34,792 nucleotides of DNA from a virus, in IMG/VR virus record IMGVR_UViG_3300043399_000364, positions 1-34,792 of that record; one strand, written 5' to 3'. Of the stretch, positions 2,462 to 28,170 are shown piece by piece (the first letter of the stretch is position 1; every line of letters begins with the position of its first letter). Position numbers and translations under genes: made by a program. Under the pieces are notes generated by a model. It did no database searches and had not been told where the DNA came from. It worked only from the letters and a program-made list of their open reading frames with translations.

Positions 2462-2698
2462 TTATACGTCTTTATCATCATCCGTCAAGCTGTCGAATAT
2501 CTTATCCAATTCTTCGCAGCTCCTACGGTACATTGCTTCCTTGCGATTGGCATCCTTCAGCGCCAATTCGTAGATGTAATTCATCCGGTCCACTTCCTTC
2601 TCCAATTCGTGCATATCCTTGGCGATGGCGCGCCGTACCAATACATCACCCACCGCCATACCGATGCAGAACATAAGGAACGCAAGCAACCAGGTCAT
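2462..2698 (-). CDS. small membrane-anchored coiled-coil protein
   Basis: A 78-aa protein with one hydrophobic segment (about residues 3-22) followed by a highly charged helix likely to form a coiled coil and an acidic tail (DDDKDV). The start overlaps the upstream gene by 4 nt (ATGA) and has AGGCAGGA in front. Unrecognised. The topology suggests an inner-membrane anchor with a cytoplasmic helix; a link between replication and membrane is conceivable but unsupported. Confidence 0.65.
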   Translation of the reverse strand: MTWLLAFLMFCIGMAVGDVLVRRAIAKDMHELEKEVDRMNYIYELALKDANRKEAMYRRSCEELDKIFDSLTDDDKDV

Positions 2699-2889
2699 TC
2701 CTGCCTGCCTATAGAATTGATAAAGCGGAGCATATCGTCCTGGTTGTTGAATTGGAACCGGTGATCCACACCATCCCGTTTTACACCGATAACATACACT
2801 TCCGGCTTGATATTCAGGTTCCGCTCGGCAGCTTCAATCTTGTCCAATTCCTGCAACAGCTGTTCAGCCTTGATAGCAAGTTCTCGCAT
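2695..2889 (-). CDS. hypothetical protein, 64 aa
   Basis: Unrecognised small protein with a helical N-terminal half and a short alpha/beta C-terminal half. Two ATGs in tandem (2892 and 2889) follow AGGAGG; the second has the better 5-nt spacing and is preferred. It overlaps the next gene by 4 nt, as expected for translational coupling in this operon. Confidence 0.6.
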   Translation of the reverse strand: MRELAIKAEQLLQELDKIEAAERNLNIKPEVYVIGVKRDGVDHRFQFNNQDDMLRFINSIGRQE

Positions 2890-2898
2890 CATATCCTC

Positions 2899-3699
2899 CT
2901 AATCCAACCAATTAAAATTCTTGTAGGGGTCGTTATCCACCTTGCGCCGCGCCACGATCCCGTTCAGGGTATTCGTCAACGACATCGGGCTGGTAATGGT
3001 GTAGCCGTTCATCGCCTGAACCGCGGACTTTATGTCATCCACCTTCACACCGAGGTTATTCCAATCCTCGAAGGCGCCAACCCACTTCTTCTGTTGACTG
3101 GTCATATACTGTAATCCCGTTGCTTCGGTAAAGGCTCTTCCGAATTCCTGATATTGCTCCGGTAACAGTGTATCGGTTCTCTTCTTGGCTTTATCGGATA
3201 ATCCGATCATATCCAGTACCTGCTTGTTTACGTTTTCGTAATCGGTTTCGGTCAATGATTTAATGATGGTTAAATGATGGTTTAAGTCAAGTGGCTTGAC
3301 TACCTCTGGTAAAGTGGCTTGACTACCCTGGTCAAGTGGCTTGACTACTCCACCGGAATTCTGGGCCGGATTATTTTTTAACGTTGGTGTAAAAGCGTTC
3401 AAGTTCAGCTGGTACATATTCGTTTTATGCTTATCATTTACACCAACAACTTCAAGGATCCCGTTGTATTTTAGGGCTTCGATGGTATCTATAACGCCCT
3501 GCCTTGATAGCGCTGTTTTTACTTCAAGCCGAGATAACCCAGGGTAGGCGATGCCATCATCATTGCAATGGTCGGCAATAGCCAACAATAAAAGCTTGAC
3601 GGTGGATGCCTTCGCGGTACGCTTCTGGCCGTTCTTTACATATTCGAAGTCGCCTGGGAATTCCGTCTCGAATACGGCTGACATAATCTTGATGCTCAT
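2899..3699 (-). CDS. winged-HTH replication initiator-like protein
   Basis: A 266-aa protein whose residues ~25-90 form a winged helix-turn-helix domain (TAKASTVKLLLLAIADH... LSRQGVIDTIEALKYNGIL). A low-complexity linker (~105-145) and a C-terminal helical domain (~175-260) follow, similar in layout to phage initiator or helicase-loader proteins of the lambda O/DnaD kind. The linker DNA contains three palindromic 15-bp repeats beside A/T-rich direct repeats, a typical place for a phage origin. GGAGGT precedes the ATG, which overlaps the upstream gene by 4 nt. The initiator role is inferred from domain layout and the embedded repeats. Confidence 0.72.
   Translation of the reverse strand: MSIKIMSAVFETEFPGDFEYVKNGQKRTAKASTVKLLLLAIADHCNDDGIAYPGLSRLEVKTALSRQGVIDTIEALKYNGILEVVGVNDKHKTNMYQLNLNAFTPTLKNNPAQNSGGVVKPLDQGSQATLPEVVKPLDLNHHLTIIKSLTETDYENVNKQVLDMIGLSDKAKKRTDTLLPEQYQEFGRAFTEATGLQYMTSQQKKWVGAFEDWNNLGVKVDDIKSAVQAMNGYTITSPMSLTNTLNGIVARRKVDNDPYKNFNWLD
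3262..3345. repeat. candidate replication origin: iterons plus A/T-rich repeats
   Basis: GTCAAGTGGCTTGAC occurs at 3286-3300 and 3331-3345, with a one-mismatch copy (GTAAAGTGGCTTGAC) at 3309-3323. Each is a palindrome of 6-bp arms around TGG, and the copies start 23 and 22 bp apart, about two helical turns. Directly left lie two A/T-rich direct repeats (AATGATGGTTA and AATGATGGTTT, 3262-3283), a plausible unwinding element. The middle copy lies in a different reading frame from the other two, so the repeat is conserved as DNA rather than as peptide. Confidence 0.7.
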
Positions 3700-3983
3700 A
3701 CTACCTCCATAACTTGGTACACATTCCCGAACTCCCGAATCAATCCCGCCTCCACCAGCTCTTTTTTAGCCTGGCTGACCATACCGGTAGACATCTTGCA
3801 TATCATCGCCAATGTCTTCACGGACTGGTAGCACAACCTGTTCTCGCCAGCTACACGGCGGAAGTGGATATATAGCCTGAAGGCGTGCGGGCTTAACATC
3901 ATATCGTCCACAATATTCGGCACCATCGTAAAGTTCGTCCGCGGGCTGGCTTCGTCTATTATCCGGTACTGTTCGTCTGTCAT
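3696..3983 (-). CDS. helix-turn-helix DNA-binding protein, 95 aa
   Basis: Small protein with a clear winged HTH in its second half (about residues 50-90, VKTLAMICKMSTGMVSQAKKELVEAGLI), like the N-terminal domain of phage replication initiators. It sits directly upstream of the larger initiator-like gene and overlaps it by 4 nt, so the two may act together at the origin or as regulators. GGAG lies about 9 nt before the ATG. Alternatives are a transcriptional regulator of this operon. Confidence 0.72.
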   Translation of the reverse strand: MTDEQYRIIDEASPRTNFTMVPNIVDDMMLSPHAFRLYIHFRRVAGENRLCYQSVKTLAMICKMSTGMVSQAKKELVEAGLIREFGNVYQVMEVV

Positions 3984-4003
3984 AATGCGCTCCTTCTATC
4001 CTT

Positions 4004-4501
4004 TCAATTCCAGAATACCGAGGATGAATTCCTTACCGCGTTCATCCTTTCGAATTCTTTTATATGATACGTGAAGAATCCGGTTTTATCGTTATTCTTT
4101 AATAAATACTTGGTTTCGCTGAATAAAGGTTGGGCAGCGTTTATATCCAATAACACCCAGTCCTGAATGGCCGTGCATTGTGGATTCTCCCAGGCATATA
4201 GATACCAGTCGCCGTAACCTTCGCGCAGCTTGTCAATCTCCGTTTTATGGCCGTAGATAAAAGCACGTATGGTGATGTCGCGGTATGAACAATTCCCACG
4301 CCTGATACGGACCGCCACATCGCCAGACGTGATCCGCACCTTCAGATCAGTGGAATGCTTCATATCCTCTTCCGGCGTGGCAACCTCCACATTGACAATG
4401 TGCATAGCGTTGGCTTGGAGGATGGTTTTTATCGCACCGATATACTGCTCGCTGAATGTCCAATTCTGGTTGAAGTTTTTTGCCCATAAGGTTTGTTCCA
4501 T
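4004..4501 (-). CDS. phage protein of unknown function, 165 aa
   Basis: First gene of the leftward operon, preceded by GAGGTG and by the interleaved inverted repeats of the leader. No family is recognised with confidence. The middle has alternating hydrophobic and charged strands (DLKVRITSGDVAVRIRR) and an aromatic stretch (GYGDWYLYAWE), so a mixed alpha/beta fold is likely. A restriction-like nuclease core is possible from the D...VRIRR pattern, but this is weak. Being first after an attenuator-like leader suggests an early, regulated role. Confidence 0.65.
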   Translation of the reverse strand: MEQTLWAKNFNQNWTFSEQYIGAIKTILQANAMHIVNVEVATPEEDMKHSTDLKVRITSGDVAVRIRRGNCSYRDITIRAFIYGHKTEIDKLREGYGDWYLYAWENPQCTAIQDWVLLDINAAQPLFSETKYLLKNNDKTGFFTYHIKEFERMNAVRNSSSVFWN

Positions 4502-4518
4502 AACACCTCGCTTAATAA

Positions 4519-4631
4519 GAAAACCCCGTTGTTGCCATTCAACTTGTCACAATCGAAGGGCGCAACAACGGGGGTTTTCAGCCTGGACCAATTATAAACT
4601 AATAATTGGGTAAATCCCTTCGATTGTGACA
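4519..4631 (-). promoter_or_regulatory. leader with interleaved inverted repeats (attenuator-like)
   Basis: Arm A (4519-4535) pairs with A' (4562-4579, 17 bp with one bulged G). Arm B (4545-4560, TGTCACAATCGAAGGG) pairs perfectly over 16 bp with B' (4616-4631). The order A-B-A'-B' interleaves the arms, so the full stems compete or would have to form a pseudoknot. A third hairpin (4588-4595/4602-4609) lies between. In the leftward transcript the A'/A hairpin is G/C-rich and followed by TTTTCTTATT, terminator-like, ending about 15 nt before the first start codon. B' is at or near the predicted 5' end of the RNA. Confidence 0.65.
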
Positions 4632-10798: not shown

Positions 10799-11212
10799 AT
10801 GGGCAAATTCACCCGTACCAACATCAAAAGCGCCGAACTTGAGAAGCGTGCCACCGAACTGCGACTTGCCGGATACACCTACCGCAAGATCGCGGAGATC
10901 ATCGGCAATGTCACGCATGTCAGCGTCTACAAGGCCGTCCTCCGTTCGCTGAAGCGCAACCAGGAAGAGACTTTGGAGAACGCCGAGATGCTGCGCGCCA
11001 TTGAACAGGAACGCCTGGAACGACTGATAGCGGCAGCTGATGTGAAGGCGCAAGCAGGCGACATTGCCGCCATCGAAGTGGTCAGGAAGCTGTCCGAGTC
11101 CTTGCGTAAATTGAATGGCATTGACGCCCCCGCAAAACAGGACGTGACCAGCAATGGGCAGACCATCACCTGGCGCGAATTTATATCAACCGACACCGAT
11201 GACAACGCCTAA
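10799..11212 (+). CDS. terS: terminase small subunit
   Basis: A 137-aa protein with an N-terminal helix-turn-helix (about residues 14-50, RATELRLAGYTYRKIAEIIG...) for binding the packaging site. A long charged helix (~55-105) would form the oligomerisation core, and a short C-terminal tail could contact TerL. Its position directly before TerL and after HNH is the standard packaging order. No strong Shine-Dalgarno (AAAGG) but no alternative start. Assignment rests on architecture and synteny. Confidence 0.8.
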   Translation: MGKFTRTNIKSAELEKRATELRLAGYTYRKIAEIIGNVTHVSVYKAVLRSLKRNQEETLENAEMLRAIEQERLERLIAAADVKAQAGDIAAIEVVRKLSESLRKLNGIDAPAKQDVTSNGQTITWREFISTDTDDNA

Positions 11213-12560
11213 CCAAGTCGTCAGCAACGCCGAACTGTTCGCGCAAGCCTTCCTGAAGATACGGGACAAGGAAAAGAAGCTGGTCCCGTTGACATGGAAC
11301 AAAGCGCAACGCGACTTCCACTACAACCGCACAGGGCGCGATCTGATACTGAAGGCCAGACAGCTTGGCTTCTCCACGTATGTCCAGGGCGAGATGTTCC
11401 GCCGTGAAGTCACCGATACCAGGACCACCATCACCTTGGCGCATGACACGGAAACCACCCAAAAACTGCGCAGAATGGCGGATCGCTTTTATAACCATTG
11501 CCGGTTCAACAACATCCAGCCGGCAAGGAAATACGCCAATTCCACCCTTACCACGTATCCTGAATTCGACTCCACCGCCGTCATCGCTACCGCTGGTAAT
11601 GTGGAGGTAGGCCGCGGTGATACGTATACCGATATGCACGGTTCCGAAGTCGCGTTCTGGCCGGATGCTGAACGGATCGTAGCCGGAGCGATGCAAGGCG
11701 GTAATCCTGACGTTGTACTGGAATCCACCCCGAACGGAGCGCAGGGATTCTTCTACGACCGATGTATGGAAGCCTTGCGGGGTGACTCCATCTGGACATT
11801 GCACTTCTACCCTTGGTGGTGGGATGATGAATACCAGATAGCGTTGGAGCCAGGCGAAGGCCTTGACCTGACCGATGAAGAAGCGGCATTGGTACACAAG
11901 CACAACCTGACCAAGGCGCAGATAAAATGGCGCCGTAGCAAGCAACGGGAGCTAAAACGCTTTTTTATTCAGGAATACCCCGAAGACATCAACACCTGCT
12001 TCATCACGTCCGGCAACAGCTACTTCGGCGACATCAGCGGCAACTACATCGCACCGATGGAGCCTGAACGCAATCCCGACCACCGCTATACCGGCGGATT
12101 GGACTTCGGCCAGACCAACGACTATACCGCCCTGGTCATATTGGATCACACCGAACGGAAGATGGTCGACTTCCTCCACATCAACAAGCTGGAATGGGCG
12201 GAGCAACGCCGGCGCATCATTGATATGTGCAAGAAGTGGGACGTGCAGAAGCTGGTGGCTGAATCCAACAGCATCGGTTCCGTGAACATCGAAGCCCTGA
12301 TGAACAACGGCATCAACGTGCAACCGTTCGCCACCACCAACGCAAGCAAGGCGGAGATTATGTCCGACCTGTACGAATCCTTGCATAACGGATTACAACT
12401 GCAGGATATTCCGGTCCTGAAGCACGAATTGCAGACGTTCGTCAGCACCCAGACCAGCAGCGGTGTATGGCGTTTAGCCGCCGAAGGTGACGGGCATGAC
12501 GACTGCGTCATCGCTTTGGCCTTGGCGAATCAGAACTTATCGACACAGGTGTTCTTATGA
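11199..12560 (+). CDS. terL: terminase large subunit
   Basis: Packaging motor and nuclease. From the ATG at 11199 (453 aa, 14-nt overlap with TerS): Walker A-like KARQLGFST at 52-60, Walker B region YTDMHGSEVAF at 143-153, coupling region LESTPNG near 174-180. The RNase H-like nuclease has D302 in GGLDFGQTNDYTAL, E355 in LVAESNSIG and D434/D435 in GDGHDDCVIAL. Starts upstream of 11199 would lie deeper in TerS and are rejected. All motor and nuclease residues appear intact. Confidence 0.96.
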   Translation: MTTPNQVVSNAELFAQAFLKIRDKEKKLVPLTWNKAQRDFHYNRTGRDLILKARQLGFSTYVQGEMFRREVTDTRTTITLAHDTETTQKLRRMADRFYNHCRFNNIQPARKYANSTLTTYPEFDSTAVIATAGNVEVGRGDTYTDMHGSEVAFWPDAERIVAGAMQGGNPDVVLESTPNGAQGFFYDRCMEALRGDSIWTLHFYPWWWDDEYQIALEPGEGLDLTDEEAALVHKHNLTKAQIKWRRSKQRELKRFFIQEYPEDINTCFITSGNSYFGDISGNYIAPMEPERNPDHRYTGGLDFGQTNDYTALVILDHTERKMVDFLHINKLEWAEQRRRIIDMCKKWDVQKLVAESNSIGSVNIEALMNNGINVQPFATTNASKAEIMSDLYESLHNGLQLQDIPVLKHELQTFVSTQTSSGVWRLAAEGDGHDDCVIALALANQNLSTQVFL

Positions 12561-12799
12561 ATGAACTGGGTAAATATTACGGGGTGTGGATACCAGGCAC
12601 CGGCTGGTTGCGCATTGGGAGCGCCGTCTATGCTGATACCCACAGGGAGATCGCGGAGGAGGTAGCCAGGTGCATCGGCAACCGTTCCGTGGTACGCTAT
12701 GTGGACGAATCAATCACCCAGCTTGAATCGGCCTATCTACAACAAGAGAAGGAATCTATATGGCATATTTGGACCAGCTTCAGAACCTCCAAGAAATAG
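12557..12799 (+). CDS. hypothetical protein, 80 aa
   Basis: Lies between TerL and portal, overlapping TerL by 4 nt (ATGA) and the portal gene by 40 nt. The product begins with a beta hairpin (YYGVWIPGTGWLRIG) and continues with an alpha helix. Unrecognised. Tight coupling on both sides supports expression. Confidence 0.6.
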   Translation: MNELGKYYGVWIPGTGWLRIGSAVYADTHREIAEEVARCIGNRSVVRYVDESITQLESAYLQQEKESIWHIWTSFRTSKK

Positions 12800-14274
12800 T
12801 AACCCGCCAACGGGCGCAATTCATCACCCAGTTGGGGATTACGGATCAGAAGCCGTACGCTTCGTTCTATCCCGACTGGGAGACGACCACACCGCAATAT
12901 GTCACGCCCAACCCGTACAGCCTTGCGCAGATGGGTTACCGCACCAACGAGCTGGTGTATACCTGTATCCAGACCCGTTCGCAAGCGGTATCCGAAGCAA
13001 GGCTAAAAGTCTACCGGCTGGAAGACGAAGAGATGACCGCCGTAGACCATCCAATGATGAAGCTGATGAAGTCACCCACGCCTGGCTTATCCGAACAGGA
13101 ATTCTGGCAAGTCGTGGAGACCTACCTGCTTATTGCGGGATTCAGCGCGTGGGAAAAAGAGCGTAACAATAGGGGGGAGGTGATCCGTCTCTGGCCGATG
13201 CGGCCCGATTGGTGTTCCTTTATTCGAGGACAACAGAAGCCTATCGCGGCCATCCGTTACCAGCCTTGGGGTATGCAGTTCGCTGACATCCCGATTGAAG
13301 ATATAGTTCTATTCCAATACTTCGACCCGCTATACCCGTTGCTAAAAGGCTTCAGCCCGACTATGACGGCATTGGACCTGATCGATACCGACAACACGGC
13401 GACACGGGTCATCAGGACCTTCCTGAATAACGGCAACTTCCTTGGCGGCGTACTGACCACCGAACAGGCGTTACAGGATGCTGAAGCGGAACGCATCAAG
13501 ACCAAGTGGCGGCAGGAACACGGGTCGGCGGATTCCGCTGGCGACATCGCCGTACTGGGCAAGGGTGTGCAATTCGAGCCGTATTCGATGACCTTCAAGG
13601 AGGCTACCTTCCCTGAATTGGATAGCCGGTCCGAAGCCCGTATATGTATGGTGTTCCGAGTTCCACCGATGCTGATAGGCGCCAAGATTGGTGTGGATAG
13701 ATCCACCTACTCCAACTACAAGGAGGCCAGGCAGGGATTCTACGAATCCACCATCGCCAGCGAATGGTCATTCCTTGCCGGCCAGCTTCAGGAGCAATTG
13801 TTGCCTGATTACGGTAGCGAAGGGCTTATGTGCGAATTCGATACCTCCAAGGTGAAGGCCTTGCAGGAAGATAGGAACGCAATGGTGGACCGCGCCATCA
13901 AGCTGTACGAATCCGGCGTGGCCAAGCTGAACGAAGCCCGCAAGGAAGCGATGCTGACATCCCTTGACGCAGATGGGGACATCTTCCGCGCCAACAATAC
14001 CCGCCAAGAATCGGAAACGCTTCCACAGAACGGCGTGCTGGGGGCTGACCGTGACGATATGGAAGAGGCCAAGGAAGAGGTGACCGCCTTCCGCAAGTTC
14101 GCCAAGTCACGCATCAAGGAAGGCAAGCGGGAATTACTGGCCACCTTCAACTTCAAGCATCTTACGCTGGATGAACAGTCCAAGCTGCTGAATGAATTCG
14201 GCATCTCCGCCAAGTCTGATTTAGCGTTGTTAGCCGAAGCCATCAATAGGTCGATGAATGCTAAAACCATCTGA
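12760..14274 (+). CDS. portal protein (HK97-type)
   Basis: A 504-aa protein forming the dodecameric DNA channel at one capsid vertex. Typical HK97-type features: NELVYTCIQTRSQAVSEARLKVYR near residue 70, DHPMMKLMKSPTPGLSEQEFW near 105, the I-E-D-I-V-L-F-Q-Y-F-D block near 180, the ALDLIDTDNTATR helix near 208, and RVPPMLIG near 305. The C-terminal ~100 residues are a charged helical extension. It overlaps the next gene by 17 nt. Confidence 0.94.
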   Translation: MAYLDQLQNLQEIVTRQRAQFITQLGITDQKPYASFYPDWETTTPQYVTPNPYSLAQMGYRTNELVYTCIQTRSQAVSEARLKVYRLEDEEMTAVDHPMMKLMKSPTPGLSEQEFWQVVETYLLIAGFSAWEKERNNRGEVIRLWPMRPDWCSFIRGQQKPIAAIRYQPWGMQFADIPIEDIVLFQYFDPLYPLLKGFSPTMTALDLIDTDNTATRVIRTFLNNGNFLGGVLTTEQALQDAEAERIKTKWRQEHGSADSAGDIAVLGKGVQFEPYSMTFKEATFPELDSRSEARICMVFRVPPMLIGAKIGVDRSTYSNYKEARQGFYESTIASEWSFLAGQLQEQLLPDYGSEGLMCEFDTSKVKALQEDRNAMVDRAIKLYESGVAKLNEARKEAMLTSLDADGDIFRANNTRQESETLPQNGVLGADRDDMEEAKEEVTAFRKFAKSRIKEGKRELLATFNFKHLTLDEQSKLLNEFGISAKSDLALLAEAINRSMNAKTI

Positions 14275-15097
14275 AGTCCTGACGGTCATCAAGAACCATC
14301 CCGACATCCTTCCGCACCTATCCGCGGCGTCCAAGATTCACGCCTTCGGGGAAGAAGCCTACTACAAGGCGATTGAACGGGATCCCGCCGAACCACACCG
14401 CAAGGAGAAGATGAAGTTCGAGAAGCGGCTGGCTGAATTGATGCAGCGCATCTTCGACCGCCAGAAGGAGACCATCCGCCCACAGATAGCCGCCGCCCAA
14501 TACACCAAGGCTGACGACTACGACCTCGAATGGACGGAATCGGAGAAGAAGGACTTTATCTCGCTGATACTGGAAGTCTACGGGGACGGATTGGATATGT
14601 TCCGGCAGGAAGTGTTCGATGGCTTCAGCGATGAATTCATCAACGTAAAAGCGCAGGCCGCCGCCCGCAAGTACGCCTATGACCTGATCAAGATAATGGG
14701 CCAGCAGCTGAACCAGACCACCGTTGACGGTATCAGGGACGCTATCTCGATGTTCGCTGAACCAGGCGTTACCATCGGGGATGTTATGGACCGCCTACCG
14801 TTCAATCCTGACCGTTCTTTACGCATCGCCGTAACGGAGATCACCCGCGCGTACGCTACTGCCACGCAGGAAGCCGGAATGGAGATGCAGCGGGAATTCC
14901 CCGACCTTACCGTCATCAAGACGTGGTACACCAACGTGGATGATAGGGTATGCGATATATGCGGTCCATTGCATATGACCAGCGTCAAGATTGACGACAA
15001 CTGGGGCGGCATTGATAACCCGCCGGCGCACGTAAATTGCAGGTGCTGGTCGGATTACGGTACAACCTTGGGGAATGTGGAGATGTATGCCGGTTAG
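14258..15097 (+). CDS. Mu gpF/SPP1 gp7-like minor head protein
   Basis: A 279-aa head morphogenesis protein. The C-terminal third contains the family signature: ITRAYATATQEAG near residue 200, the cysteine pair VCDICGPLHM near 235, and NPPAHVNCRCW near 260, a zinc-binding set. The N-terminal two thirds are helical. Such proteins enter the procapsid with the portal and may accompany DNA during ejection. It overlaps the portal gene by 17 nt. Confidence 0.88.
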   Translation: MLKPSEVLTVIKNHPDILPHLSAASKIHAFGEEAYYKAIERDPAEPHRKEKMKFEKRLAELMQRIFDRQKETIRPQIAAAQYTKADDYDLEWTESEKKDFISLILEVYGDGLDMFRQEVFDGFSDEFINVKAQAAARKYAYDLIKIMGQQLNQTTVDGIRDAISMFAEPGVTIGDVMDRLPFNPDRSLRIAVTEITRAYATATQEAGMEMQREFPDLTVIKTWYTNVDDRVCDICGPLHMTSVKIDDNWGGIDNPPAHVNCRCWSDYGTTLGNVEMYAG

Positions 15098-15569
15098 ATT
15101 GCAGATCCGCGGGCTTGAACAGGTGAAGGCGGCCATGGCGCAATTCCCCGACCAGATTCAGAAGGCTGTTGGGTTTGCGCAGAAGGAGATGGCCAAGAAT
15201 ATCCTTGAAACAAGGGGCTTGCGTAACTACGCCCCGCTATCAAGCGCGAACCAACCACCAGGCAACGCTGGTCGCGGATATTATAGTCGTGGTAAAGGCT
15301 GGATGGCTAAAAGTGGTTCCGGCTATAAACTGGTACCAATTAGTAAGCGTCTTGGAACCAAGTGGTATGCCAATCCCAACGGATTCAGCACCAAGGTAGG
15401 CAACCCCGTAACATACGCGCCTTATATTCACGGCGACGAACAGGTAAGCTGGGCCGCCAAGGTTGGCTGGCGCAAGTTGGCCGAGGTGGCGGAAGAGAAG
15501 ATAGACGAATCGGTCGCCATCTACGAGCGACACATCCAAGCCCTTATAAAAAGATTAGGGTTAGATTAG
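15087..15569 (+). CDS. HK97 gp10-like connector or minor tail protein
   Basis: A 160-aa protein from ATG 15087 (GGAG upstream, 11-nt overlap). The N terminus (RLQIRGLEQVKAAMAQFPDQ) and central KVGNPVTYAPYIHGDEQ look like the gp10/tail-completion family, where a Y-A-P-Y/I-H-x-G stretch is typical. It lies before the protease and capsid genes rather than after them, an unusual position for a tail-completion factor. Family assignment is moderate. Confidence 0.55.
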   Translation: MPVRLQIRGLEQVKAAMAQFPDQIQKAVGFAQKEMAKNILETRGLRNYAPLSSANQPPGNAGRGYYSRGKGWMAKSGSGYKLVPISKRLGTKWYANPNGFSTKVGNPVTYAPYIHGDEQVSWAAKVGWRKLAEVAEEKIDESVAIYERHIQALIKRLGLD

Positions 15570-15577
15570 GAGATCAT

Positions 15578-16057
15578 ATGTTAGATAACGTTATGCTTCA
15601 AGCACTGAATGAACAACTGAATATCGAACGCTACAACCAGGCCGCCTATGATATGCTTGCATCCGCCTTGGATGTAGCCTATTGGCCCAATTCTTCAGCC
15701 TGGATGAAGGCACAGGCCAAGGAGGAATCCGACCACGCCGACAAGATCGCTGAATACATCATTGACCGTGGCAACATCCCCTATTATGCCGACATCGTGC
15801 CTATCCCGATGATTGACGCCGCCGACCTTACCTCCGCGTTCGTTGAAGCGATGAAGGTGGAGAACGCCAATACGGAGAAGATAAAAATGCTTTACTTCCT
15901 TGCCGAAGAACAGGCTGACCCGCAGACCTGCCAGTTCCTTCACTGGTTCCTCGCCGAACAGACCGAAGCGGAAGGCAAGCTGAATGATTACATCACTATG
16001 CTTCAACGATTGGACGCCAACGGCAAGATGGTATTCGATGCCGAATTCGTAAAATAA
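15578..16057 (+). CDS. ferritin-like protein in the head gene cluster
   Basis: A 159-aa four-helix ferritin, close to bacterial FtnA (165 aa). The start LNEQLNIERYNQAAYDML matches the classic helix A; AKEESDHADKIAEYI is helix B; FLHWFLAEQTEAE is helix D. Ferroxidase ligands by FtnA numbering: E17, Y24, E49, E50, H53, E94 (here E95), E126 (E127), Q127 (Q128) and E129 (E130) are present, but E130 is replaced by Ala131. Strong TAGGAG before ATG 15578. It follows the gp10-like gene by 8 nt and precedes the protease by 23 nt, so it is co-transcribed with capsid genes. No encapsulin-type C-terminal targeting peptide is obvious. Confidence 0.87.
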   Translation: MLDNVMLQALNEQLNIERYNQAAYDMLASALDVAYWPNSSAWMKAQAKEESDHADKIAEYIIDRGNIPYYADIVPIPMIDAADLTSAFVEAMKVENANTEKIKMLYFLAEEQADPQTCQFLHWFLAEQTEAEGKLNDYITMLQRLDANGKMVFDAEFVK

Positions 16058-16080: not shown

Positions 16081-16950
16081 ATGCCATACCGAATTGATGA
16101 ATCAGAAGGTAAGTTTTTAGTGGTGAACGAGGACACGGGTGATGTCAAGGGGGAACACCCGTCACGCGCCAAGGCTGAAGCCCAGATGCGCGCCTTGTAT
16201 GCCAACGAACCGGACGCCAAGAGTATGAAGGTGGGCCGGCGCAACAGTTCCTCCGACTCCCGCAAGCTGGAACAGATCCGCGACCTGGTCATTGAACTGA
16301 TCGGCGCTGAACTGGAAGAATCCGAAGCGGAAGAGGTCGCCGGCAAGTCCATTGATGTCAGCCACGTCCCTGATAGTGGCAAGAATGAATGGGCGGTAAA
16401 ATCAATCGGTGATGGCGTCATCAAGGGTTATGTGGCTATGTGGGGCAACCCCGACCAGACCGACCTTGAATATGAATACTTCACCAAGGATACCAACTTC
16501 TGGGATGGGCAGCTAAAAGACGCTCCCCGCCCGCTTACGTGGGATCACGCCCAAGATAAAGACTTCAAGGGCAACCCCGTCATCGGCACCATAACAGAGA
16601 TGGGTGATGACGAGATCGGACGCTGGTACGTAGCCAAGCTGGACCGGAGCCACCAATACAACAAGGCTATCGAAGCTCTTGTTAAGGCTGGCAAGCTGGG
16701 AACCAGCAGCGACAGCGCCCCGCAATATGTGGAACGCGTGAAAATGGGAAAGGCTGTGTGGCTGAAAACTTGGCCGCTTTTTGCCGCCGCCTTGACCGAC
16801 ACACCCTGTGAACCACGAATGGTAGGTTCACTTGAATACTTGAAATCCATTGGCGTTGAACTGCCGGATAATCACACTCGTGATTGGCAATGGGCAGCGG
16901 CACGGATGAAGAGAAACCGTTTAGAAACCCAACAAGGAGATTCCAAATGA
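16081..16950 (+). CDS. HK97-type prohead protease (U35-like) with N-terminal extension
   Basis: Serine protease that would trim scaffold and capsid during maturation. The catalytic domain lies at about residues 110-245: GYVAMWGNP near 116, catalytic His156 in PLTWDHAQD, Ser209/Ser210 in GKLGTSSDS, and LFAAALTDTPCEPRM near 236. The first ~100 residues are an extension with a short beta domain (FLVVNEDTGDVKG...) and a Ser/acidic linker, possibly a scaffold or portal-contact module. The stop overlaps the capsid start by ATGA. Confidence 0.88.
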   Translation: MPYRIDESEGKFLVVNEDTGDVKGEHPSRAKAEAQMRALYANEPDAKSMKVGRRNSSSDSRKLEQIRDLVIELIGAELEESEAEEVAGKSIDVSHVPDSGKNEWAVKSIGDGVIKGYVAMWGNPDQTDLEYEYFTKDTNFWDGQLKDAPRPLTWDHAQDKDFKGNPVIGTITEMGDDEIGRWYVAKLDRSHQYNKAIEALVKAGKLGTSSDSAPQYVERVKMGKAVWLKTWPLFAAALTDTPCEPRMVGSLEYLKSIGVELPDNHTRDWQWAAARMKRNRLETQQGDSK

Positions 16951-18350
16951 AAGAACTGCTGCAAAAATCTCTGAAATCGGTTTTGGATCAGGCTGATGCT
17001 ATTGAAGCGGACATTAAAGCCGCTGGCCGCGAACCATCCGATGCCGAGATGAAACAATACAACGATCTGCTTGTCAAGGCCGAAGGCTATCGACAACAGA
17101 TTGACAGCGCCTCCAAGCGCGAAGCCCTGAAGGACTGGGGCGAACAATCCGCCGGTTCAGTGGTAAAGACCGGATTCGACCGTGTTGCTGACGAGCGTGA
17201 AGGCAACATCCCTGGTGTATCCAGCACCCCCGATGGTGAACTGTACGCCGTGGATGGCAGCTTCAAGCACATCGGCGAGCAGAAGCTTGCCGCATTGAAG
17301 TCAGGCCAATACAAGGACGCCTTCGACAGCTATATCCGCAACGTAGGCCTTGGCCGTTCCGTAAAGGGCGATGCGATGAAGGTCCTGAACGAAGGTGCCG
17401 ACAGCTCCGGTGGCTTCTGGATTCCCCCCGACTTCCGCCCCGAGCTGATCAAGAAGATGGCTACAATGACCTCGGTCCGCCCGAACGCTTCCGTGTTCAC
17501 CACCGGTACCGATGCCATCACCTTCCCCGCCGTGAACTACTCCACCGATGACAAGTACACCAGTGGCGTACGCTTCAGCTGGCGCGGTTCCAGCCCCGCT
17601 TCTTCCGACATCGCCGAAGCCACCAATCCGGTAGCCGGCCAGGTCAAGCTGCCCGTGCATCTTGCCACCGCCGCCATCATCCTGACCCGCGAGCAGTTGG
17701 AAGATTCCGCTTTCGATGTCCTTGGCTATCTTACCGGCCTGATGGCTGAAGCCTTCAGCCTTGGCGAGGAAGATGCCTTCACCAACGGTACCGGCAACGG
17801 ACAACCCGTAGGCTTCCTGAACCACCCATCTATGGCGATTGCCAATGGATCCACCAGCACCGTCAACGGCGTGACCTACAGCGGTAACTACATCCTGTCG
17901 GGTTCCACCGGCGCGTTGGCCTGGGGTAGCAAGACCACCGGTATCATCGGTGTGGAAGCTGCCTTGCCTCCGCAATATGAAGGCAACGCCAAGTGGTACG
18001 GCAACAAGGGTACCTACGCTGGTATCCGTGCCATCAATGCCGGCACCGCCACCCTGCCCCAATGGTCACTCGGTGATTCCTGGCCCAACTACGCCAACAA
18101 CTACAACGCCAGCCTGCTGGGATACAACATCGTCAAGAACCAGTTTATGCCCGATGTTGCCGCCAGCGCAGTCCCGTTGGTGTTGGGCGATATGAAGGGT
18201 TACTACATCGCTGACCGCGTTGGTCTGTCCGTTGAAGTCTTCCGCGAGGTCTACGGCCTCCGCGACCAGGTTGTCGTATACGCCCGCAAGCGTACCGGCG
18301 GCCAACTGGTCCACTACTGGAAGATGAAGAACCTGACCATCACCGCGTAA
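16947..18350 (+). CDS. major capsid protein, HK97 fold
   Basis: A 467-aa protein from ATG 16947 (AAGGAG upstream; an in-frame ATG at 16884 lies in the protease gene). Residues ~1-60 form a coiled-coil delta/scaffold domain. From ~145 the mature coat domain begins (EGADSSGGFWIPPDFRPELI), with the E-loop, P-domain helix (EEDAFTNGTGNGQPVGFL) and A-domain (LVLGDMKGYYIADR) in the usual order. The neighbouring protease supports cleavage of the delta domain. The capsid class is the same fold as encapsulins. Confidence 0.95.
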   Translation: MKELLQKSLKSVLDQADAIEADIKAAGREPSDAEMKQYNDLLVKAEGYRQQIDSASKREALKDWGEQSAGSVVKTGFDRVADEREGNIPGVSSTPDGELYAVDGSFKHIGEQKLAALKSGQYKDAFDSYIRNVGLGRSVKGDAMKVLNEGADSSGGFWIPPDFRPELIKKMATMTSVRPNASVFTTGTDAITFPAVNYSTDDKYTSGVRFSWRGSSPASSDIAEATNPVAGQVKLPVHLATAAIILTREQLEDSAFDVLGYLTGLMAEAFSLGEEDAFTNGTGNGQPVGFLNHPSMAIANGSTSTVNGVTYSGNYILSGSTGALAWGSKTTGIIGVEAALPPQYEGNAKWYGNKGTYAGIRAINAGTATLPQWSLGDSWPNYANNYNASLLGYNIVKNQFMPDVAASAVPLVLGDMKGYYIADRVGLSVEVFREVYGLRDQVVVYARKRTGGQLVHYWKMKNLTITA

Positions 18351-18794: not shown

Positions 18795-18810
18795 AATCTT
18801 GGGAGCGATG

Positions 18811-19734
18811 ATGAAAGATACCGTCTGCATATGTGGTACGAACCTGATAACCCGTGACCTGATTGATTGGGACAAGGATGCCGATTATTGGTACTTCAAC
18901 GAATCAATCAGCGGATCAGCGAAAGAACGGGATGGCGTCTTCGGTTGGACATACGAAAAGCCGGTACACGGCGTGTTCCAGATGCACGTGCCGGCAATAT
19001 GGCGCAATAAACACAACATTACCGACCCTGGTCATTATGACTGGCTACAGAAGGACCACGGCATCGAAGTCTTCATGCAAGAGAAATATGAAGACGTCCC
19101 GAACAGCGTCAAGTATCCCAAGGACGAGATCGTGGCTAAATACCTGCCGCATCTTATCCGCGAGAACCAAGGCAACCTCCCGCCCGTGCCGGACCCTTTT
19201 ACATCATCGTGCGAATTCGCCATTGCGTTGGCGATTTACCGCGGATATAAGAACATTTATATCTATGGTGTGGAGGCGACCAGCGATACGGAATACCAGC
19301 GCCAGCGTGCCGGTATTTACTTCTGGATCGGCATTGCGTCACAGCACGCCAACGTCATCATTCAGCGCCGTTCGTTATTACTGAACGCGAAAACATACGG
19401 GTATACAGGTGAAGTCGTGATACAAAAACAGGAATTCGAGTTAAGTCTGCACGGATACGCCAAGGAATCGGCGAAGGTCCAAACCGAAGTATTTGAAGCC
19501 CGCGGCAAGGCTATGGCTTACTTACAGGCCGCCGGCAGTGAAAAAGACGTGAAGAAAGCCAAGAAGTTGTACGAGCAGTATTTTGAAACCTTGAACGACC
19601 TGCTGGACAAGACCTACCTATACGGGAATCTTGCCGGCAAGGTTGAAGAGAACGGGCGATACATCGGCGAATGCAACCAGCTGATAGACGCGGCTGGCGG
19701 TGAAAAAGCCCTGAAAGCATTGGTAGGCGAATGA
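18811..19734 (+). CDS. DUF115-like protein of unknown function, 307 aa
   Basis: ATG 18811 (GGGAG upstream; 18808 is a second ATG). The first ~200 residues look like a Rossmann-type alpha/beta fold: a start VCICGTNLITRDLIDWDKDADYW, then GYKNIYIYGVEATSDTEY near 150, similar in style to DUF115/MptE-like or motility-accessory glycosylation proteins. The last ~90 residues are long helices. Phage proteins of this type are found near capsid genes, perhaps modifying virion or host surface, but no catalytic residue set can be claimed. It lies between the capsid and connector genes. Confidence 0.55.
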   Translation: MKDTVCICGTNLITRDLIDWDKDADYWYFNESISGSAKERDGVFGWTYEKPVHGVFQMHVPAIWRNKHNITDPGHYDWLQKDHGIEVFMQEKYEDVPNSVKYPKDEIVAKYLPHLIRENQGNLPPVPDPFTSSCEFAIALAIYRGYKNIYIYGVEATSDTEYQRQRAGIYFWIGIASQHANVIIQRRSLLLNAKTYGYTGEVVIQKQEFELSLHGYAKESAKVQTEVFEARGKAMAYLQAAGSEKDVKKAKKLYEQYFETLNDLLDKTYLYGNLAGKVEENGRYIGECNQLIDAAGGEKALKALVGE

Positions 19735-25863: not shown

Positions 25864-26316
25864 ATGGAAAAGATTTTTACAGGTTTAGATCGCGCGAAGG
25901 AATTGGGATTCAGCAGTTATCGGGATTACCTTACCGCATTGGGTATAAAATACAACCATCGCTGGAGCGGTAAATCCAACAAGGAACAGGTCACCGCACG
26001 GGTAGACTTCGGTCGTTGGATCGCTGATTGCAAGTGTGGTGCCGCCCAGTATGTAGAACCAGACCAGCCGTTTTATTGCGCCGAATGTGGGATGGCGTGG
26101 AATGATAACCTTGCTTGCGAGGTTGTCTTCCCTCCCGTTGAAAAGATGGCCGAGGTAGAAGCTGAATTATTGGAACGCCCCGTATTGAAGCGTGGACGCA
26201 AGGACCAGAAGACCATCCAGCCGCCTCCTGCCGAGCCTGGCTTATCCCGTTCCTGGACGCCGGAAGAGACCGTTGCCGACCTAAAGGATCAGCGTAAAAA
26301 GAGGGGTAGGCGATGA
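25864..26316 (+). CDS. zinc-ribbon protein in the tail region, 150 aa
   Basis: ATG 25864 (AGGAGCG upstream); an ATG at 25810 falls in the hub gene. Contains CKCGAAQY near residue 58 and YCAECGMAW near 73, a four-Cys zinc ribbon, then a Pro/Glu-rich linker and a basic end (KKRGRR). The N-terminal 45 residues are helical with a short basic patch. No tail-structural family is recognised. Confidence 0.65.
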   Translation: MEKIFTGLDRAKELGFSSYRDYLTALGIKYNHRWSGKSNKEQVTARVDFGRWIADCKCGAAQYVEPDQPFYCAECGMAWNDNLACEVVFPPVEKMAEVEAELLERPVLKRGRKDQKTIQPPPAEPGLSRSWTPEETVADLKDQRKKRGRR

Positions 26317-26930
26317 CCTATCAAGCACTGCCAACGGTCACCACGGGTGAAACATGGACCGCTGCCCAGCATAATACCTATGTTCGGGATAACTTCAGCG
26401 CCTTGTTCCCGTATACGAAGCAGGGCAATATTGCCTATGCCGCCAGCGCATCCGAATTGACCGTTCCCACTAACGCCGCCGGAATCAAGATAATGAAGTC
26501 GGTATCCGGCGTTCCTGCGTGGGTGGACCCTCCTTCCAGAAGCTTCTGCTTTATCACCAAGAACAACCAGAACGTGGAAGACGGGAGCGAAAACATATCC
26601 TTCTCCACCGAAGTGTTCGATAACTTCAATATGTGGTCATCAGGAAGCCCGACCAACATATCCCTGCCATCCGCGGGGATTTATCGGTTCGTTGGTACGA
26701 TGGTATGGGCATCCAACAATGACGGGCGGCGGGCGGTGATCCTGAATGACGGATCGAATATATACATTGATTCCAGGCTGGCCATCAGCGGTTTATATAC
26801 CGTCAATTCCTTCAGCTATGTTTATTACACTTCCACAGCGAAGACCGTCAATATCATCGCTGTGCAGAATTCAGGGGTGACATTGGCCACTGATTGCAGC
26901 CTGATGGTCACTTACCTTGGGGATGTATAA
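26313..26930 (+). CDS. tail fibre/receptor-binding paralogue 1
   Basis: A 205-aa protein. The N-terminal ~75 residues (TWTAAQHNTYVRDNFSALFPY... SVSGVPAWV) are shared with the next two genes and probably attach to the tail. The C-terminal part is a beta jelly-roll-like domain (VFDNFNMWSSGSPTNISLPSAGIYRF). First of three tandem paralogues; overlaps the upstream gene by 4 nt. Confidence 0.75.
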   Translation: MTYQALPTVTTGETWTAAQHNTYVRDNFSALFPYTKQGNIAYAASASELTVPTNAAGIKIMKSVSGVPAWVDPPSRSFCFITKNNQNVEDGSENISFSTEVFDNFNMWSSGSPTNISLPSAGIYRFVGTMVWASNNDGRRAVILNDGSNIYIDSRLAISGLYTVNSFSYVYYTSTAKTVNIIAVQNSGVTLATDCSLMVTYLGDV

Positions 26931-27556
26931 TGGCTTATTCTACCGTTCCTACCGTTGTATCCGGTGACAGCTGGTCGGCGGCGCAGCATAACACCTACAT
27001 CAAGGATAACTTCGCCGCGTTATGGCCGTTCACCACAGCCGGCGATATAGCCTACGCGGCCACATCCACAACATTGGCAAGGCTCCCCATCGGTACGGAA
27101 GGGCAGATATTATCCAGCGTATCGGGAGTACCTGATTGGGTGGATTCAACCGCCGCCGATAAATATTGTCTTCTGCGCAGAACATCGGCGCAATCCATCA
27201 ACAACAACACCCAGACGCTTATATCCTTCAGCGATGAAGTGTTCGATAACAATTCCTACTGGGCGGCGGGCAGTCCTACCGTCATCAATCTTCCCACAAC
27301 GGGATTCTACCGATTGACGGGATCCGTAACGTGGAAGGCGGATGGTACGGGTGACAGGGCGGTTTACATCGGACCGACAGCCATCCTGGTCGCTTATCAG
27401 AACGCCGTTGGTGGGATCACTACCACGCAATCTTTCGATTATGTGATCGAGACGGAATCGAACAGCGTCAGCACTTATATGTGGGTATGGCAAAATTCGG
27501 GTGGAGCGTTGGACGTGAACAGCGCAAGATATAACGTCACTTATCTTGGAGCATAA
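26930..27556 (+). CDS. tail fibre/receptor-binding paralogue 2
   Basis: A 208-aa protein from ATG 26930 (TAATG coupling). It shares the SWSAAQHNTYIKDNFAALWPF module and the linker IGTEGQILSSVSGVPDWV. Its C-terminal domain resembles paralogue 1 (EVFDNNSYWAAGSPTVINLP, TGFYRLTGSVTW) but differs at many loop positions, as expected for varied receptor specificity. Confidence 0.75.
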   Translation: MAYSTVPTVVSGDSWSAAQHNTYIKDNFAALWPFTTAGDIAYAATSTTLARLPIGTEGQILSSVSGVPDWVDSTAADKYCLLRRTSAQSINNNTQTLISFSDEVFDNNSYWAAGSPTVINLPTTGFYRLTGSVTWKADGTGDRAVYIGPTAILVAYQNAVGGITTTQSFDYVIETESNSVSTYMWVWQNSGGALDVNSARYNVTYLGA

Positions 27557-28170
27557 TGGGATATTCGACAGTACCTTACGTAAATTCAGGCGATACTTGG
27601 ACAGCGGCCCAGCACAATACCTATATCCGCGATAATTTTGCCGCTTTATGGCCGTACGCTGACGAAGGCGATATAGTTGTCGCATCCTCCGCTTATTCAG
27701 TCACCAAGCTGGCTATCGGACCGGAGAACAGCATCCTGATCAACAACAACGACAGCGTATCGTGGGGAACCTTGTCGCAGATCTATTGCCAGCTTGATGT
27801 CGAGACCACATCCATCTCCAACGCAAGCTGGGAGGCATTGTCCTACAGCGTTGTCAAGGATGATTACGGGATGATAAACCCGTCCTATTCTTCAAGGATA
27901 TACGCGCCTTGGACCGGCATTTATTATCTATCCGGCGGGGTGTATTGGGCAAGCAATTCCAGCCAGACGCGCGAAGTAAAATACTATAACAGCTTTACCA
28001 ACAAGACATTGTATATTGACACACAGGGTGCTGGCTTGACCAACACCAACAACATATCAATGCCGGTCAGTATGTCCGCAGGCAGTTATATCGAAGTCTC
28101 GGTATATCAGGGTTCAGGTGGAAGCCTGGACGCATCGGCTAAAATCAACCTAACATATTGGGGTTCCTAA
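27556..28170 (+). CDS. tail fibre/receptor-binding paralogue 3
   Basis: A 204-aa protein; ATG overlaps the preceding stop. The N-terminal module (TWTAAQHNTYIRDNFAALWPY) is nearly identical to paralogue 2, but the C-terminal domain is much more diverged (WTGIYYLSGGVYWASNSSQTREV, in outline). The gradient from conserved N terminus to variable C terminus fits modular exchange of binding heads. Confidence 0.72.
   Translation: MGYSTVPYVNSGDTWTAAQHNTYIRDNFAALWPYADEGDIVVASSAYSVTKLAIGPENSILINNNDSVSWGTLSQIYCQLDVETTSISNASWEALSYSVVKDDYGMINPSYSSRIYAPWTGIYYLSGGVYWASNSSQTREVKYYNSFTNKTLYIDTQGAGLTNTNNISMPVSMSAGSYIEVSVYQGSGGSLDASAKINLTYWGS

Follow-up and report, generated by a model that had tools for sequence, protein, structure and literature searches.

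Ferritins are among the best studied of proteins, and the iron encapsulins are thought to descend from HK97-type phage capsids. What, then, is a ferritin gene doing in the head gene cluster of a tailed phage, directly ahead of the genes for the prohead protease and major capsid protein? The question is raised by a 34,792-nt stretch of viral DNA (IMG/VR record IMGVR_UViG_3300043399_000364, positions 1 to 34,792; hereafter the window), for which a sequence-only reading had proposed that the procapsid takes up an iron-storing ferritin, or that the phage uses the protein for oxidative protection or iron capture on host entry.

The ferritin gene and its place in the head operon

The head genes of the window are as follows.

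11154..12560, + strand, terminase large subunit (TerL); PF17289 E=4.1e-8, phrog_2 E=2.6e-24
12760..14274, + strand, portal protein; PF04860 E=1.2e-63
14258..15097, + strand, Mu-F-like head morphogenesis protein; PF04233 E=3.1e-11
15075..15569, + strand, small head-module gene preceding ferritin, 'gp10-like' by position only; homologue in the same place in relative L002, 54% identical
15578..16057, + strand, ferritin gene, 159 codons (159 aa); PF00210 E=1e-25
16081..16950, + strand, prohead protease (Peptidase_S78) with a variable N-terminal region; PF04586 E=1.6e-4, phrog_80 head maturation protease E=2.1e-6
16938..18350, + strand, HK97-fold major capsid protein; PF05065 (Phage_capsid) E=3.4e-45, L002 homologue 86% identical

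With its neighbours (terminase, portal, Mu-F, small gene, protease, capsid) forming a standard tailed-phage head cluster, the ferritin open reading frame sits in it just as the sequence-only reading had described, in coordinates, 159-residue length, orientation and the 23 nt that separate its end from the protease ATG at 16081. An AGGAG ribosome-binding site lies immediately 5' of its ATG at 15578, which is 8 nt past the stop codon of the upstream gene, and a search of the entire record with PF00210 returned this single locus. The upstream gene had been called a gp10-like protein; a gene does stand at that position, but searches of Pfam and PHROG returned no match to it, and the name is positional. 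The start of the capsid gene is uncertain, the listed open reading frame beginning at TTG 16884 and an in-frame ATG lying at 16947. Judged from sequence and context, the 159-codon frame is a real ferritin gene and a member of the head operon.

From this arrangement the ferritin is very likely expressed late, together with the head genes; no promoter-like site was found on the ferritin strand in the scanned stretch, which is weak evidence. Operon position by itself is insufficient to show a role in the head. An ordinary auxiliary gene, encoding a host-type ferritin for host iron homeostasis or oxidative stress, could occupy the head operon only for the sake of late expression and with no link to the capsid, much as phage Dps and Mn-catalase have been proposed to protect host cells (PMC8008677, PMC6669764). 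We regard this explanation as possible though on the unlikely side.

Fold and family membership

Both profile search and structure prediction bear out the identification as a ferritin that was made from the sequence alone. The PF00210 match scores 90.7 bits against a cut-off of 24.5, and a profile search of the PDB matches the protein to Thermotoga maritima ferritin with E=1.8e-40. An AlphaFold2 model, computed from an alignment of nine viral-contig sequences, has a pLDDT of 94.6 and consists of five helices, with A at 4-33, B at 37-63, C at 84-111, D at 115-143 and E at 147-156, so that the predicted structure shows the four-helix bundle, long BC loop and short helix E of a ferritin. Its superposition on complete bacterial ferritins takes in helix E and gives Z 24.4 and rmsd 1.2 Å over 158 residues; against the solved T. 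maritima, Escherichia coli and human ferritins, also over 158 residues, Z is about 24 and rmsd 1.1-1.2 Å. Because the superposition covers all five helices, the protein is predicted to be a complete ferritin, neither a Dps nor a two-helix encapsulated type, and it very probably assembles into the usual hollow cage.

Several narrower identities were rejected. Dps proteins are defined by the absence of helix E and a short helix within the BC loop; the window protein is predicted to possess helix E (147-156) and to have no helix between residues 63 and 84. With five predicted helices rather than two main ones it is not an encapsulated ferritin (EncFtn), and, stopping three residues past helix E (156 of 159), it lacks the C-terminal targeting peptide by which encapsulin Family 1 cargo is defined. 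No targeting extension was found at either terminus, the C-terminus being an ordinary helix E, and no fusion of ferritin to the capsid protein exists in the window. The locus is likewise not an encapsulin operon, because the window also has genes for terminase, portal, Mu-F, protease and tape measure. Among named ferritin families, the protein scores 67.6 bits on the NCBIfam FtnA equivalog (PRK10304), far under the cut-off of 178, and 13.2 bits on the bfr equivalog, where bacterioferritin membership begins at 125.55. It also matches PHROG family 16594, of unknown function; a cellular Staphylococcus aureus ferritin scores higher on this family, which is thus simply an unnamed ferritin family.

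The iron site

The window protein carries E17, Y24, E49, E50, H53, E95, E127, Q128 and E130, with alanine (A131) at the Glu130 position; in E. coli FtnA numbering E95 is E94, E127 is E126, Q128 is Q127, E130 is E129 and A131 is E130. The ligands listed in the sequence-only reading, and the replacement of E130 by Ala, are therefore correct, window numbering being offset by one residue after the BC loop. Across eight phage ferritins (the window's and those of seven relatives), 12 of 159 columns are invariant, and these include all five diiron ligands (E17, E50, H53, E95 and Q128; hypergeometric P about 1e-6), Y24 and E127, residues that are equally fixed across 83 other sampled ferritins.

The Glu130 replacement is no isolated change but a hallmark of the phage clade throughout: all eight phage proteins have A or S at position 131, where 83/83 others have E, and position 130 (Glu129) is E in one of the eight, the window's, as against 82/83 others, so that the Glu129/Glu130 pair of FtnA-type ferritins with a third iron site is not retained. 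With Glu130 replaced and Glu129 mostly gone, the third iron site (C) is dismantled and the two-iron site kept, and by its sequence the remaining centre resembles that of the eukaryotic H or mitochondrial type. Human H-chain Ala144 and mitochondrial ferritin Ser144 occupy the same position as Glu130. Human H-chain and mitochondrial ferritins are active ferroxidases, and the Glu130 change thus does not imply a dead enzyme; given the conserved ligands, the window ferritin is very probably ferroxidase-competent. Its comparison with the L002 ferritin (pN 0.24; pS 0.78, synonymous sites being saturated) indicates purifying selection.

This pattern bears on whether the fold has been retained as a scaffold-like or assembly piece, its iron activity gone. 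Three relatives without ferritin (L037, L035 and L048) have other helical stretches in the N-terminal, scaffold region of the protease, as such a structural role might lead one to expect, but the diiron ligands are the best conserved part of a sequence that otherwise drifts to about 32% identity, and we consider a purely structural role very improbable.

Recurrence in related phages

The independent contig L002 has the same gene order, with a ferritin 64% identical and a capsid protein 86% identical to those of the window, and scans with the capsid and protease proteins yielded about twenty further relatives. In all, seven further, divergent uncultured phages (L002, L022, L031, L032, L036, L039 and L041; L023, L029 and L030 are the same virus as L022) have a ferritin in their head module ahead of the protease, in a slot between gp10-like or portal-side genes and that protease. 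Identity to the window ferritin falls to about 32% among these relatives, while capsid identity ranges over about 47-86%, and the gap between ferritin and protease extends from 23 nt in the window up to about 3 kb in L041. In L022 an additional gene (3764-4582), which has no counterpart in the window, separates ferritin from protease. The edge of contig L024 preserves a C-terminal remnant of ferritin, its last 16 residues (RRLDKTGWLVFDNGLK, then stop).

This shared synteny excludes a recent random insertion, which the sequence-only reading had named as an outcome that would undo its proposal, and it refutes the notion that the open reading frame is a chance similarity or a contaminant rather than a phage gene. 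Ferritin matches in the collection of phage records are indeed unconvincing as phage genes: the only matches from tblastn against annotated phage records were S. aureus-like ftnA, in two 'Staphylococcus phage' records that are unannotated, and short gut contigs in which the other genes have a bacterial look (aldolase, phosphoglycerate mutase, heat-shock protein and others). These were rejected as phage ferritins. The window gene, by contrast, is embedded in an uninterrupted head operon and turns up in the same setting in independent contigs, leaving contamination a negligible probability. The records themselves, OR850087.1, OR845001.1, MT838721.1, MT838998.1 and MT839617.1 (L003-L006), are filed as phages with bacterial-looking ferritin regions, and are a probable contamination of the phage collection.

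Eight distinct relatives in which the region is readable (L033, L034/L035, L037, L042/L043, L044, L045, L048 and L049) are without ferritin, L038, L046 and L047 being left out of the count as their contigs end too near the locus; the ferritin is thus not essential for head assembly. Such patchiness across the phage family is what an ordinary auxiliary gene would show, although its occurrence in the same head module of phages with capsid proteins only about 47-86% identical to the window's speaks against that explanation. No ferritin of this type was found in the cultured phages of the collection searched, and none in the region retrieved from Salinibacter ruber phages, which have the same protease type. 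An alignment of the conserved protease against a genome collection, made for host assignment, found no prophage relatives.

Phylogeny and origin

In a maximum-likelihood tree the phage ferritins fall on one side of a branch with SH-aLRT 100, separated from the 83 other rows, which cover many phyla; on these sequences they form a phage-specific clade. Cellular ferritins were sampled by means of patterns derived from the proteins of the window and T. maritima, by which a closer cellular relative may be missed, and in this non-exhaustive sample no close cellular donor was found. Several phage ferritin branches are long, and the tree does not resolve the deeper splits among the ferritins. A distinct clade with a common iron-site change argues against the casual recent pick-up of a host-type auxiliary gene. 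Most of what a DNA pattern of the ferritin core matched in viral contigs was unrelated; a single further ferritin came up, L020, which was rejected as a member of the phage clade because it groups with cellular ferritins.

The capsid-tree topology is weakly rejected by the ferritin data (AU p=0.029, with few resolved nodes), and only the window/L002 pair is firmly common to both trees. Strict co-inheritance of ferritin with capsid is not supported, and some exchange between phages is possible; the distribution on the capsid tree fits either an ancient gain followed by repeated losses or transfer between members of the phage family.

Metal storage and the prohead protease

A second link between metal storage and the head comes from L049, a relative without ferritin that shares 48% capsid-protein identity with the window. 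In this single contig the N-terminal part of the prohead protease (2609-3826) holds a 123-residue domain with 27 cysteines, which AlphaFold2 predicts, from the single sequence, to be a four-helix bundle with a pLDDT of 93.4. Its best structural matches are all copper-storage proteins or their close kin, at up to Z 18.7 (Streptomyces lividans Ccsp), as compared to Z 12.1 for the best clearly unrelated fold. Pfam gave no match to the cysteine-rich protease, and the assignment comes from the fold together with a phmmer match to copper-storage proteins that is weak and of biased composition (E=5e-4). By its best matches, then, the L049 protease would carry a Csp-like copper-storage domain; the domain is like Csp and Ccsp in being a cysteine-rich four-helix domain and differs in that it sits within a prohead protease.

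In HK97-type phages prohead proteases enter the procapsid, and a storage domain fused to the protease would thus be carried inside. On the predicted fold, the L049 fusion ties metal storage to the procapsid independently of ferritin, and it counts against an auxiliary gene with no capsid link, since it points to the head. In BFVD, moreover, the window ferritin has among its structural neighbours chains named 'Prohead protease' and Dps-containing proteins, several hundred residues long, from uncultured phages. Together the fusion and these neighbours lift the idea of packaging above pure speculation; none of them locates the window ferritin in the particle.

The N-terminal region of the protease varies in other ways as well. 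A common helical stretch (GGxEYARxEGWDI...) occurs there in L037 (6001-7113), L035 (5581-6546) and L048 (2079-3245), which are without ferritin, and a zinc-ribbon-like motif, with a weak Pfam match, occurs there in L041 (5653-6618).

Proposed role

The best explanation of the locus, and in our view a probable one, is a ferritin specific to phages and competent as a ferroxidase, which is produced while heads assemble and there binds iron and oxidises it. The ferritin would be translated from the late head operon alongside the portal, protease and capsid proteins, would fold as the complete five-helix type and would form a hollow cage, in which the diiron centre (E17, E50, H53, E95 and Q128, with Y24) would oxidise Fe(II) and the oxidised iron would then be held as ferric mineral. 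Free iron of the dying host would in this way be removed while heads mature and fill with DNA, shielding the DNA and particle, near or inside the procapsid, from iron-driven oxidative damage. The cage and its ferroxidase activity, by analogy with established ferritin biochemistry, can be expected with high confidence; that the protein protects or handles iron in connection with head assembly, taking up iron as heads mature, is slightly more likely than not. The intact core iron-binding residues suggest that these viruses manage metal during head building.

Whether the procapsid takes up the ferritin, beside or through the protease or scaffold, so that the virion carries it, is a further step. 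Packaged ferritin would protect the packaged DNA, or deliver iron or ferroxidase to the next host, and the capsid would then do the work of an iron encapsulin while housing a genome as well. The ferritin gene adjoins that of the protease, which enters the prohead; the L049 protease itself bears an alternative, Csp-like metal-storage domain; protease chains of other phages are structural neighbours of the ferritin; and encapsulins take in ferritin-like proteins, even bacterioferritin, as a shell within a shell (PMC8346489). Against packaging, the window ferritin has no targeting extension at either end, and a 24-mer cage is bulky in a DNA-filled head, although, with each estimated to take up about 1% of a 60-nm head, a few could fit. 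As an explanation of the locus we hold packaged cargo only tentatively, and physical presence of the ferritin in procapsid or virion is rated as doubtful. More speculative still is the idea that this phage family loads its heads with metal stores, iron through ferritin in many members and copper through the protease-fused domain in at least one; if true, the phage capsid would be a metal-handling compartment, the viral counterpart of iron encapsulins.

Relation to known systems

Prokaryotic ferritins of PF00210 (E. coli FtnA, T. maritima, Pyrococcus furiosus) resemble the phage proteins in full-length fold, helix E and common ligands (E17, E50, H53, E94 and Q127, plus Y24 and E126), whereas the phage eight differ in the change of Glu130 to Ala/Ser in all of them, the loss of Glu129 in most, their separate clade and their head-operon setting. 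Eukaryotic H-chain and mitochondrial ferritins share the two-iron centre and Ala or Ser at the Glu130 position, but the phage sequences are closer to prokaryotic ferritins, and the likeness of the sites is probably convergent.

The analogy with encapsulins drawn in the sequence-only reading holds in outline only. Encapsulin cargo (EncFtn, bacterioferritin) likewise oxidises iron and is encoded alongside the gene for an HK97-fold shell (PMC8346489, PMC5012862), but EncFtn has two main helices and requires the shell (PMC5012862) and encapsulin cargo bears a C-terminal targeting peptide (PMC8346489), whereas the window encodes a five-helix ferritin with no such extension, in an operon that makes up a full cluster of phage head and tail genes.

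That a phage putting a ferritin to such use would be new had also been suggested, and this needs qualification. Ferritin-superfamily iron and oxidative-stress proteins are already known from phages, as Dps and Mn-catalase of Gratiaviridae (PMC8008677) and Lactobacillus phages (PMC6669764), although Dps is without helix E and the Lactobacillus example adjoins replication genes rather than the head module (PMC6669764), and BFVD holds a 'putative bacterial non-heme ferritin [uncultured marine phage]'. What stands is the conservation of a full ferritin in the head module of phages, of which a full-text search of open-licence papers found no report. A clade specific to viruses, with an iron site of its own form and a fixed place in the capsid operon, is apparently undescribed, and it raises two testable questions: whether phages manage iron during assembly, and whether metal-storage cargo existed in HK97-fold shells before or alongside encapsulins. 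The finding also bears on the Ferrojan horse hypothesis, which views phages as iron-bearing particles and concerns tails. Iron in phage tails has been discussed (PMC11705849).

Other observations in the window

Two further features of the window lie downstream of the ferritin. Right after the capsid genes, at 18799-19734, is the gene for a 311-aa protein that is 82% identical in L002 and about 45% identical in L022 and L033, and for which no Pfam or PHROG family was found. At 26313-28170, three adjacent genes have alike starts (GETWTAAQHNTYVRDNFAALWP-like) and are probably tandem paralogues of a particle protein.
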